Positions 29,487 to 34,301 of a stretch of 64,000 bases of DNA are shown here, in pieces; position 1 is the first letter of the stretch, and each line of letters starts with the position of its first letter. Origin of the DNA: an uncultured Dehalococcoidia bacterium (GTDB lineage Bacteria; Chloroflexota; Dehalococcoidia; Lucifugimonadales; UBA3495); contig OX638345.1 in the NCBI GenBank assembly GCA_951813535.1, positions 2,601,158 through 2,665,157 of the forward strand. The letters are read 5' to 3'. The notes beneath the pieces were generated by a model, which did not search any database, was not told the DNA's origin, and saw nothing but the letters and a program-made list of their open reading frames with translations. The position numbers and the translations under genes are program-made.

Positions 29487-31163
<1,677 letters not shown>

Positions 31164-31377
31164 TGGAAGCTCCTGGTTTGGCGGGGCCGCTCCGTGTTCA
31201 GGTCCCTGCGTACGTCGGTACGGAACCCCGCGGAAGCGGCGGGTAACAACCTTTGTCAGGTAGTATATAGCACCGACACATCAGGGCCCCAACCGGGCCA
31301 GCCATCGCCACTCTGGAGTTGTGTGGTCCGCTGACCACCGTGCCCCTGCAATAAAAGTGTGCTACGGTACCAAGCAG

Positions 31378-32121
31378 ATGAACCGGGCGACACCCATAAT
31401 GATCACAGCTATAGGCAAAACGCCCCGCCAATGCCTCCGGCGCGTTTTGCTCTCTCTCATCGTCCTCGCCCTGTGCGCCGCGGTGACGGGTTGCAACCAG
31501 ACCCCCGCTGAACCTCGCGGAAGCGATTACGGCGCCACCGTCGAAGCGCTGTTGCCCACTGCGGAGCCCACGGCGCCACCGACGCCCGATCCAACGTTTA
31601 CGCCCATTCCGCCCACCGACACGCCGGCGCCAACGTATACTCCCCGACCGCAGCCCACCTACACGCCGTGGCCCACACCAACCAGGGCTACGACTGAGGA
31701 CCGGCAACGGGCAATACCCTTCAACGCGCAGATGCTGGACGGGTCGGAATTTTCGCTGCCCGAGGCTTACGGTTCACCCACCCTTCTGGCATTCTGGGCG
31801 CCCTGGTGACCCCACTGTGGGCGGGAGTTGCCCGCCGTTGCATCCCTCTACCGGGAGAAACTGGACGACGCCGGCGTCGACGTCATCGGAGTTTCCCAGT
31901 TCAACACCACCGAGGCGGCCACCATAGAGTTTGTGGAGCGCAACCAACTCTCTTTTCCTAATGTGTATGACGAACGCGCGCAACTGGCTGGCGTGTACGA
32001 CATCAGGGGCGTCCCCAGCTACGTGTTCATCGACAAACAGGGCCGCATCGCCCATGTCAGTGCCGGCGCTCGCGGGGTCGCTTTAATCGAGGCCTGGTTG
32101 GACCAATTGTTGGCGGAGTAA
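31378..32121 (+). CDS. TlpA-like thioredoxin lipoprotein, candidate selenoprotein (Sec at UGA 31807)
   Basis: 247 residues if TGA 31807-31809 is read as selenocysteine (residue 144). Before the TGA: signal peptide, lipobox VTGC (Cys39), a Pro/Thr-rich spacer (residues about 60-105), and LDGSEFSLPEAYGSPTLLAF then WAPW. After it, in the same frame: PHCGRELPAVASLYREKL, ASYTV-free core, RGVPSYVFIDKQGRI and the stop at 32121. This aligns with TlpA/ResA-type LLxFWAxWCxxCxxELP, with the TGA exactly at the first cysteine, giving WUPHC. The cis-proline region (GVPSYVF) is intact. A hairpin follows the TGA. ATG 31378 has only a weak ribosome site; ATG 31399 is an alternative. A cell-surface thiol-disulfide or peroxide role is inferred. 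Confidence 0.8.
31816..31842 (+). promoter_or_regulatory. Candidate bacterial SECIS hairpin
   Basis: GGCGGG (31820-31825) and CCCGCC (31831-31836) form a perfect 6-bp stem with the 5-base loop AGTTG. TGT (31816-31818) may pair with GCA (31840-31842) across a small internal loop. The loop starts 16 bases after the TGA and has a G at position 2, within the range described for bacterial SECIS elements. Confidence 0.6.
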
Positions 32122-32149
32122 TCTGCGCCCACAACCCGACCGTGGCTGG

Positions 32150-32195
32150 TTGCGCTGACGGTTTGCAGACCGTACAATTGTTCGTAATCCGAACA
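32150..32195 (+). promoter_or_regulatory. Sigma70 promoter with two inverted repeats (possible operator)
   Basis: TTGCGC (32150-32155), 17-base spacer, TACAAT (32173-32178). ACGGT and ACCGT form an inverted repeat inside the spacer and -10 (32159-32174). TGTTCG and CGAACA form another around TAATC at 32179-32195, over the expected start site. It lies upstream of ATG 32208. Confidence 0.5.
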
Positions 32196-32207
32196 TGAGG
32201 TCGAACA

Positions 32208-32447
32208 ATGGGCGTAAACTCTCCAGTGCCGATCAATGCAAACTACGAAACGCCAGCCGATGCCCAGCGGATGATCGCCAGATGGGAGCGATTGGGCCGC
32301 CCCGCCATCGAGCTCGAGCCCGGCGTTATCGTCAGCAACCTGGAACGATGGCTGTACAACAACCCACCGGCGTCGGGGCCAACCCTCGGAAGAATCCGGG
32401 AATATCTGTACATTGACACTTTCGGCATCAGCGAGAAGGCAGCCTGA
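32208..32447 (+). CDS. Small hypothetical protein
   Basis: 79 aa, soluble and mixed in charge (PADAQRMIARWERLGRPAIE, then LERWLYNNPPASGPTLGRIR). I do not recognise a family and see no membrane segment or metal motif. The start at ATG 32208 sits about 30 bases after a good promoter. The following methyltransferase starts 8 bases after its stop, so the two are likely co-transcribed. Confidence 0.6.
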   Translation: MGVNSPVPINANYETPADAQRMIARWERLGRPAIELEPGVIVSNLERWLYNNPPASGPTLGRIREYLYIDTFGISEKAA

Positions 32448-32454
32448 ACGCGCC

Positions 32455-33213
32455 GTGACCTTGCGCCTCTACCACGACCTGGCCCACCTTTGGCCGATCA
32501 TCAGTCCGCCGGGAGAATACGCGGTCGAAGCGGCGGAGTGGCGCGACTTGATCTGGACCAGTTTCGGGTGGACCGGAAACCAGCCAGCGTGGGACCCGCG
32601 AGCCAGGATGTTGGATCTGGGCTGCGGCGGCGGCCACCTGTTGTCCCACTTCACGCGCCATTTCGCCACGGAAGCCGTCGACATATCCCCGCAGATGCTG
32701 GAAATTTCGCAGGGCCTGAACCCCAACACCATTCACCACCTCGGGGACATGCGCACCATCCGCCTGGGGCGCACGTTCGACGTGGTCACCATTCACGATG
32801 CAGTCAACTACATGGTAACCGAAGCGGACCTGCGCGCGGCCATCGAAACGGCCCACGCGCACCTGGATCCCGGTGGACTGGTACTGCTGGCTCCGGACTG
32901 CCTGCTCGATACATTCGCCGGCTCAAGGGTGGTGGACTGGACGCGCGAAACGGATGACAGCAACGTGACATTCATCGAATATATTGCGCAGCCGACACCC
33001 GAAGCGACCACGCTCGAATCGGTGTTCGTGTTCATCATCAACCGCGACGGCGAGATTCAGGTGGAGGTGGACCGCCATGTCAGCGGGCTGTTCCCTAAAT
33101 CCCTGTGGTTGGAAGCGCTGACCGAGGTCGGGCTGGAAGCGGAATACGTGCAGACCAACGCGTACGAGGGCGGCTTCGGGGGCAATCTTTTCGTGGGGCG
33201 GATGCCCAGTTAG
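32455..33213 (+). CDS. Class I SAM-dependent methyltransferase
   Basis: 252 aa from GTG 32455; the 266-aa longer frame from 32413 overlaps the previous gene. SAM motif I is ARMLDLGCGGGHLLSHF, motif II is EAVDISPQMLEISQ, and FDVVTIHDAVNYMV is the motif IV/post-IV region. The rest is typical of methyltransferase-11/25-type enzymes with a beta-rich C-terminal cap. Substrate unknown. It shares a promoter with the small hypothetical gene upstream. Confidence 0.82.
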   Translation: MTLRLYHDLAHLWPIISPPGEYAVEAAEWRDLIWTSFGWTGNQPAWDPRARMLDLGCGGGHLLSHFTRHFATEAVDISPQMLEISQGLNPNTIHHLGDMRTIRLGRTFDVVTIHDAVNYMVTEADLRAAIETAHAHLDPGGLVLLAPDCLLDTFAGSRVVDWTRETDDSNVTFIEYIAQPTPEATTLESVFVFIINRDGEIQVEVDRHVSGLFPKSLWLEALTEVGLEAEYVQTNAYEGGFGGNLFVGRMPS

Positions 33214-33263
33214 GCCCCAACGATTTCTGATCTGCCCCCTGGGGACACGCTGCCGCGGCGGGT

Positions 33264-33269
33264 TATAAT
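33264..33269 (+). promoter_or_regulatory. Candidate -10 box for MaoC gene
   Basis: TATAAT, 28 bases before ATG 33297. No convincing -35 box is seen. Confidence 0.35.
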
Positions 33270-33296
33270 TTCCGCAACATCCAGGAGGCAGCTACC

Positions 33297-34301
33297 ATGA
33301 CCCAACCGAACGCTACCGCCACTGAGCGCTTGTGGACGTACGACACCGTCCGTGTCGGCCAGGCCGGGGCGGAAACGCGGGTGACGCTCTCGGCCGAGGA
33401 CATCGCCGAATACGCGGCCTGCGCTCAAAATCCTGACCAAAGATACTCCATGCCGGCGTTGGGACAAGACACCGGACCGATCATCGCAATGCCCACCATG
33501 GCGCTGACCTATGCCCCGTTGCTTCGGGACGAGATCGCCGAGGCCAACGGTTTCGTCGCGCAGGAACGGTCGGAAGTCAGCCGCCGTCAGACCCCGTTCG
33601 CCAAGTGCGAGATGCGGTGGTATCGGCCGGTGCGTTCCGGCGAAACCCTCACCGGGACGCGGCGGGTGTACCAGAAATACGAGCGCCGCGGCAGCAAGTT
33701 CGTAACCTTCCGGGTTTCCGCTTTTGACGAGGCCGGCGCCGTCGTTTCCAGTTACGACTATACCTGCATATTCGAGTACTCAGCGGGGCAACGATCCGTG
33801 CCCGAGGCATCCGCCGGCGCCGCTCCAACTGCCGATGCGACGGCCGTGCCGGACCCCGCGCAATTCCTGACCTGGCAAAACGCCCTGGCCGGCGCTCCGT
33901 TGCCACGCACCCTCGCGGTCGGAGAGACCACCGAGAACATTCTCCGCAAAAACGCGCACCGCCTGGCCGGCCGTCCCAGCGAAAGCAACATCCACACGGA
34001 CGAGGAGTTCGCCCGACAGAACATATTCGGCGGAGCGGTCAACGCCGGCCCGGCGACCATGTCATACGTTGACCGGTTCCTTGGCCTTAACGTCCCGCCC
34101 GAAGCCCTGTACAACGGCGGCAACCTGGTGATGCGGGCCATCACCCCCTTCCGCGCCGGCGACGTGGTGACTTTCGCGGGCGAAATAACCGGAACCGGCG
34201 GCAACTTGTACGGGCAACGCAAGGTGCAGTGCCGCATACGGGGCGTCAACCAGCGCGACGAACTGGTATGCCTGTCGGACGCAACGCTGAGTTTCGGATA
34301 A
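33297..34301 (+). CDS. Two-domain MaoC-like dehydratase (FAS1-like N-terminal + MaoC)
   Basis: 334 aa. Residues about 10-165 form the FAS1-like hotdog (LWTYDTVRVGQAGAETRVTL, EYAACAQNPDQRYS, RQTPFAKCEMRWYRPVRSGE). An Ala/Thr/Pro-rich linker follows (about 168-195). Residues about 200-334 are the MaoC domain, with PSESNIHTDEEFARQNIFGG carrying the catalytic histidine and the preceding acidic/polar residue, and the GGNLYGQRKVQCRIRG strand. MaoC hydratases add water to enoyl-CoA. It is related to the partial protein at 1-584. ATG 33297 has an AGGAGG site (33283-33288). Its stop is 5 bases before the next start. Confidence 0.85.
   Translation: MTQPNATATERLWTYDTVRVGQAGAETRVTLSAEDIAEYAACAQNPDQRYSMPALGQDTGPIIAMPTMALTYAPLLRDEIAEANGFVAQERSEVSRRQTPFAKCEMRWYRPVRSGETLTGTRRVYQKYERRGSKFVTFRVSAFDEAGAVVSSYDYTCIFEYSAGQRSVPEASAGAAPTADATAVPDPAQFLTWQNALAGAPLPRTLAVGETTENILRKNAHRLAGRPSESNIHTDEEFARQNIFGGAVNAGPATMSYVDRFLGLNVPPEALYNGGNLVMRAITPFRAGDVVTFAGEITGTGGNLYGQRKVQCRIRGVNQRDELVCLSDATLSFG

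Follow-up and report, generated by a model that had tools for sequence, protein, structure and literature searches.

Background

The C-terminal winged helices of SelB bind the SECIS element, and SelB brings Sec-tRNA-Sec to the UGA codon. The diversity of bacterial SECIS elements makes them hard to recognise, and as a result selenoprotein genes are often annotated as truncated. The constraints given for bacterial SECIS (bSECIS) elements are a stem of 4-16 bp, a loop of 3-9 nt, a spacing of 16-37 nt, a G as the first or second loop base, commonly with G or U after it, and a minimum free energy of -7.5 kcal/mol or lower (bSECIS passages of PMC13188914). For the SECIS of Escherichia coli fdhF, U17, G23 and U24 are reported to matter (PMC8659212, in its text on this hairpin). 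On the protein side, UxxC selenoproteins of PF00578 and PF08534 are already included in a 2026 inventory (PMC13188914, family entries).

The window, which is the whole stretch of 64,000 nucleotides analysed here, comes from an uncultured marine Dehalococcoidia bacterium. The hairpin at 31820-31836 is, on comparative grounds, very probably the bacterial SECIS element of a UGA-encoded Sec lipoprotein gene. A literature search, with subscription papers mostly outside it, returned no title or abstract describing this element.

The gene and its predicted product

The coding sequence at 31378..32121 on the + strand, with UGA taken as Sec, is predicted to encode a ResA/TlpA-like (AhpC-TSA, thioredoxin fold) selenocysteine lipoprotein. 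The basis for this is readthrough of the TGA, matches to Pfam and PDB, and homologues that share both the TGA and the C-terminal end. The ATG start at 31378 is presumed and the stop is the TAA at 32119-32121. The TGA splits the frame into 181 open codons upstream and 103 downstream, up to that TAA. When the TGA is read through, the translation contains a signal sequence, then a Pro/Thr-rich linker, and then a thioredoxin-fold domain with FWAPW-U-PHC. Our reading of the translation places the probable lipidated Cys at 31492..31494 (+), next to the linker, in a V-T-G-C that we take, from the lipobox rule as commonly understood, to be a lipobox; the product would thus be lipid-anchored. The UGA at 31807..31809 (+) is position 1 of the U-P-H-C active site and aligns with the Cys of CxxC homologues. 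The codon for the resolving Cys, at 31816..31818 (+), is TGT or TGC in all 21 aligned Sec homologues.

The readthrough product scores above the gathering thresholds of both AhpC-TSA (PF00578, 77.9 bits against 26) and Redoxin (PF08534, 61.2 bits against 26.6). The closest PDB chains are StoA and ResA, at E 1.6e-17 and weaker. On the NCBIfam ResA model (NF002854) the score is 86.1 bits, below the cut-off of 170, and by these matches the selenoprotein appears to be a relative of ResA and not a named member. Its likeliest role, with redox direction and substrate both presumed, is that of a Sec-based extracytoplasmic thiol-disulfide reductase or isomerase.

From 29487 to 34301 the gene order is methylmalonyl-CoA mutase (-), the selenoprotein, a 79-aa ORF, a methyltransferase and a MaoC-like gene, and this order is kept in the four closest named relatives. 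The 79-aa ORF (32208-32447, +) between the selenoprotein and the methyltransferase is conserved at 72-82% identity in four relatives; a Pfam search with it matched no family.

Predicted reading of the UGA as selenocysteine

Homologues were found at E 1e-10 in 47 of 50 genomes of the family. Within the genus, every one of the 14 genomes has at least one homologue holding the TGA, and in the 21 distinct TGA homologues that were aligned it stands at the active-site position. There are 102-105 open codons after the UGA in 20 of these 21, all of them full-length, and the remaining one (L068) is cut by a contig end. The TGA is also present in four named relatives at 73-78% identity (Dehalococcoidia, SAR202 cluster and Chloroflexota MAGs); four genus genomes with element sequences identical to those of the named relatives are taken to be the same records and were counted once. 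At E 1e-20, the TGA form of the ResA/TlpA-like branch was found only in this genus.

The genome itself, one contig that is 99.8% complete, encodes SelA (542 bits), SelB (354.8 bits, a 621-aa product with SelB-wing_2 and SelB-wing_3), SelD (370 bits, with a TGA of its own inside) and a tRNA-Sec with anticodon TCA. The full Sec set of SelA, SelB, SelD and tRNA-Sec(UCA) is therefore present in the genome that carries the in-frame UGA, and that UGA aligns with the conserved redox Cys.

These observations bear on whether the UGA could instead be a real stop, through a pseudogene or a sequencing error, or be read through without selenium, the hairpin then being incidental. Such a reading is scarcely credible. 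It can appeal to the fact that Sec insertion is here predicted from sequence alone, but it has to account for a UGA that recurs at one position in homologues from all 14 genus genomes, for 102-105 open codons beyond it in 20 full-length Sec homologues, and for a complete Sec machinery in a genome where the UGA occupies the position of the catalytic Cys.

The present gene is not the only candidate of its kind in the genome. Two family searches predict eight selenoprotein genes, seven of AhpC-TSA and SelD; 7 of the 12 AhpC-TSA matches hold one TGA, each on inspection at the redox-active Cys position. The further ones are a TxxU peroxiredoxin at G000:C1:1324958 (L101), genes at G000:C1:1144272 (L104) and G000:C1:2556795 (L107), a thioredoxin protein with UVNC and a long C-terminal part that contains repeats at G000:C1:3209870 (L108), two neighbouring UPxC genes with lipoprotein-like products at G000:C1:2363996 (L110) and 2363152 (L111), and SelD at G000:C1:1105770 (L112).

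Homologues with Cys in place of Sec are distant, at roughly 27-36% identity, and are not strict orthologues. AGTT is found at the place of the loop in 21 of 21 Sec homologues against 0 of 41 counted Cys homologues, and a hairpin of at least 5 bp at spacing 16-18 is likewise found in 0 of these 41. L001, L024, L034, L036 and L043-L047 were excluded before the Cys count, being either spurious frames or thioredoxin proper. That the Cys forms outside the genus result from loss of the Sec machinery was considered and rejected, SelA being present in 43 of the 50 family genomes.

The hairpin in a single sequence

The original prediction gave the TGA at 31807-31809 and a perfect stem around an AGTTG loop, and its coordinates are exact: the 5' arm GGCGGG lies at 31820..31825, the apical loop AGUUG, of which AGUU is invariant, at 31826..31830, and the 3' arm CCCGCC at 31831..31836, all on the + strand. 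The loop does begin 16 nt after the UGA as claimed (31810..31825, +, 5' arm included), which is the lower bound of the published 16-37 nt. The claimed agreement with the published bSECIS rules is likewise borne out for spacing, loop size, stem length, loop G and energy, as these rules appear in the bSECIS passages of PMC13188914.

The hairpin core folds at -12.9 kcal/mol and none of 200 shuffles did equally well, in a test on a stretch that was picked because it is the hairpin. For the 50-nt stretch from the UGA the energy is ordinary (z -0.48), with 65 of 200 shuffles as good. Under a rule asking for a Watson-Crick stem of at least 6 bp, a spacing of 16-37, a loop of 3-9 and a loop G, 60 of the 1594 TGA triplets in the window, on both strands and in all frames, have a fitting hairpin; with the spacing restricted to 16-18 this falls to 9 of 1594. 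Among 20,000 synonymous recodings of the same peptide, 2.9% make a rule-fitting hairpin of equal length and 23% fold as well as the native sequence, on a codon usage that is crude because it was taken from window open segments of at least 300 codons with antisense shadow frames included. A scan for AGTT loops downstream of a TGA, with stems of 4 bp or more, picked out three places in the window, of which only 31807 is in a frame with long open stretches on either side.

With chance hairpins at 60 of 1594 TGA triplets and in 2.9% of recodings, the hairpin from one sequence alone is weak evidence, and only suggestive. It is conservation in relatives that makes it firm. An Rfam scan of the window at gathering thresholds gave no matches, so no curated RNA family covers the element.

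Conservation and compensation of the stem

Conservation of the stem among UGA orthologues was the point on which the original prediction had made its SECIS depend. In a gap-free alignment of 16 distinct UGA orthologues, the 6-bp stem has standard pairs in 96 of 96 cells. The compensatory changes that it had proposed looking for are also present, with two-sided changes in 9 stem cells. The outer pair, 31820-31836, is GC in 8 orthologues, AU in 5, CG in 2 and UA in 1, and the pair 31821-31835 has one two-sided change and one G-U.

None of 500 shuffles equalled the stem in pairing, in its count of double-change cells or in covariation score; the weaker measures are the number of double-change pairs, reached by 57 of the 500, and of pair types, reached by 28. 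When the partner was slid by 1-3 columns the covariation signal was destroyed. On a tree built without the element, and leaving out L068 and both L089 copies, columns 17 and 33 change 5 times each and the pair also changes 5 times, so every change of the outer pair is double. Only 5 of the 15 inner branches are well supported, which makes the number of independent double changes approximate, and the sign test on independent pairs, with 2 pairs only, has no power.

Across all Sec homologues, 17 of 21 have a stem of at least 5 bp at spacing 16-18. The four without a strict 5-bp stem were inspected: L066 has a G-U pair in the stem; in L087 and L088 a 1-nt bulge in the 3' arm divides six pairs into three and three; and in one L089 copy (L089:1723-1770, genome G404) the UGA and the AGUU are kept with only about 2 bp beside the loop. 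It is possible that this nearly stemless copy is a decaying or relaxed SECIS. Tandem UGA paralogues, with the motifs UERC and UGYC, are found in that genome at L089:815-1770 (-).

A lower stem, TGT with GCA, had been suggested as an extension of the hairpin. These pairs do form in the minimum-energy fold of the window sequence, which favours a longer functional element that includes them. Among the homologues, however, 66.7% of the lower-stem cells are paired and there is no two-sided change; pair 13-39 is unpaired in 10 of 16, and RNAalifold leaves the lower stem out. A longer element is therefore very unlikely. Of the original prediction, the SECIS hairpin stands, being conserved and compensated, and the lower stem does not, since it is not conserved.

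Constraint on codons

The outer 5' base of the stem is the second position of codon +4, where the residue varies between Gly, Leu, Gln and Ala, and the outer 3' base is the wobble position of codon +9 (Ala or Val). In all 16 orthologues and in 19 of the 21 Sec homologues these two bases are complementary, and the codons that achieve this include GCA (8% of Ala codons) and GCT (14%). Protein constraint does not explain such complementarity. Codons +5 to +8 are free of synonymous differences. Of 121 six-codon windows, the one covering codons +4 to +9 is under the strongest constraint, with synonymous change at 0.16 of expectation compared with 0.89 upstream and 0.79 over codons +41 to +98. Codon +7 is Leu TTG, a codon that makes up 14% of Leu codons, in 20 of 21; the remaining homologue has Phe TTT, with the AGUU kept.

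It is against this background that the stem has to be considered as a possible by-product of coding C-x-R-E-L-P-A in a GC-rich genome, with the UGA still read as Sec and the true signal elsewhere. The recodings lend this something, in that a rule-fitting hairpin of this length arises in 2.9% and an equally good fold in 23%. A by-product would not, though, be expected where synonymous sites are most strongly frozen, which is at the hairpin, nor would it have the codon +9 wobble base follow the second position of codon +4 so that each of the four Watson-Crick pairs occurs. This explanation is judged highly improbable.

Low synonymous ratios, of about 0.35-0.38, were also seen for the six-codon windows starting at codons +19 to +22. 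Codons +19 to +24 (about 31864-31881) are the second-lowest synonymous stretch in the examined part of the gene. No convincing consensus structure was found at codons +19 to +24, and GCC/GGC codon preference probably accounts for the low change.

With the hairpin taken as the SECIS element, it would sit in the mRNA 16 nt after the in-frame UGA. SelB, carrying Sec-tRNA-Sec(UCA), would bind the AGUU loop and the stem with its C-terminal winged helices and deliver Sec to the UGA in the ribosomal A site, replacing termination by a release factor. The product would be a membrane-anchored ResA/TlpA-like thiol-disulfide oxidoreductase with Sec (U-P-H-C) as the attacking residue. The locus is a clean natural experiment on an RNA signal that holds synonymous codons fixed and ties the residue chosen at codon +4 to the codon +9 wobble base.

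An element shared across the order

A covariance model, R1, has 36 positions and was trained on 15 sequences. The training took in 4 of the 5 own-genome matches (E up to 0.05), and those 4 are thus recovered by construction. R1 matched 14 of 14 genus genomes at E 0.05 and 34 of the 147 genomes of the order at E 0.001. There were 28 matches outside the genus, of which 23 had loci and were examined; all 23 look genuine: the UGA has an open frame on either side, the motif is UxxC, and the AGTT lies at spacing 16. Most of these loci are members of a Prx-like family (FYRGxW-U-PYC). In a different protein family, then, Sec homologues form the same hairpin from other codons, which again argues against a stem produced by coding alone. 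Within the Prx-like family, which gave 19 distinct sequences, 11 have G-C at pair 15-29 and 7 have U-A.

The combined set has 36 distinct sequences and includes 21 of the 23 examined loci, L163 and L164 (bulged type) being left out. It has two-sided changes at all six pairs and 98.1% of cells paired, and 0 of 500 shuffles reach any of the five measures. The 23 loci were outside the training set yet were found by a structure model, so that these pair counts lean towards structure.

Of the eight predicted selenoprotein genes of the genome, 6 carry AGTT within the loop of a hairpin, with a spacing of 16 in five and of 25 in one, partly on inspection. For L110 the minimum-energy fold differs from the inferred 3+3 pairing. 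The TxxU peroxiredoxin has no AGUU loop at the usual place. SelD has no AGUU loop either and has a GG-type G-rich loop on a 7-8-bp stem further downstream.

The less expected part is the uniformity of the element across an order and several families. It is possible, and is suggested here tentatively, that the order uses a SECIS code that is specific to its lineage and fixed in sequence; several selenoprotein families would share this code, and a co-adapted SelB would read it. The content of such a code would be a stem of about 6 bp with no 5' bulged U, an invariant AGUU and usually a 16-nt spacing. If this is true, the RNA requirement would dictate the choice of codon, and even of residue, at codons +4 to +9. 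A strict version is opposed by SelD, with its GG-type hairpin, and by the TxxU peroxiredoxin, with no AGUU. One lineage in any case offers a uniform element, which a single covariance model matched in 34 of the 147 genomes of the order.

In one marine sponge, SelA and SelB are reported to co-occur in most symbiont bins (PMC5649159, in its account of those bins). That report is in keeping with a thiol-disulfide system that uses selenium in relatives of SAR202 bin87, which is sponge-associated.

Comparison with known systems

The protein shares its Pfam families and UxxC with the Prx-like thiol:disulfide oxidoreductase and Redoxin-family selenoproteins, and differs from those listed in being a probable lipoprotein with a long Pro/Thr linker, of the ResA/TlpA-like branch. 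It resembles ResA and StoA, which are Cys forms, in its best PDB and NCBIfam matches and in the CxxC thioredoxin fold. It is unlike them in that Sec replaces the first Cys and in scoring well below their models, that for ResA as given above and that for StoA at 77.6 of 210 bits. The usual electron donor of ResA is a CcdA/DsbD-type membrane protein (PF02683), and here the comparison again departs from ResA/StoA, as a search of this genome for a DsbD_TM/CcdA-type membrane reductase (PF02683) found none, despite several ResA/TlpA-like, probably extracytoplasmic redox proteins. NF041054 (WAxxUGC_long) is also a ResA-like selenoprotein; against it the present protein scores 53.5 of 300 bits and has UPHC, not UGC.

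Like the SECIS of E. coli fdhF, the element is a short hairpin whose apical loop contains a G-U dinucleotide. Unlike it, the bulged U17 is absent and the 5' arm is uninterrupted in 16 of 16 orthologues. The loop G-U is at 21-22, with the U of UGA as 1, and at 23-24 in fdhF in what we take to be the fdhF numbering. Set against the bSECIS constraints, the 6-bp stem, the 5-nt loop AGUUG with G then U, and the -12.9 kcal/mol all fall within range; the hairpin lies directly after an in-frame UGA inside the coding region, with its spacing of 16 at the lower bound, and its structure is kept by compensatory changes together with the UGA. The protein and hairpin are a further case of a known kind, the hairpin having standard bSECIS geometry.
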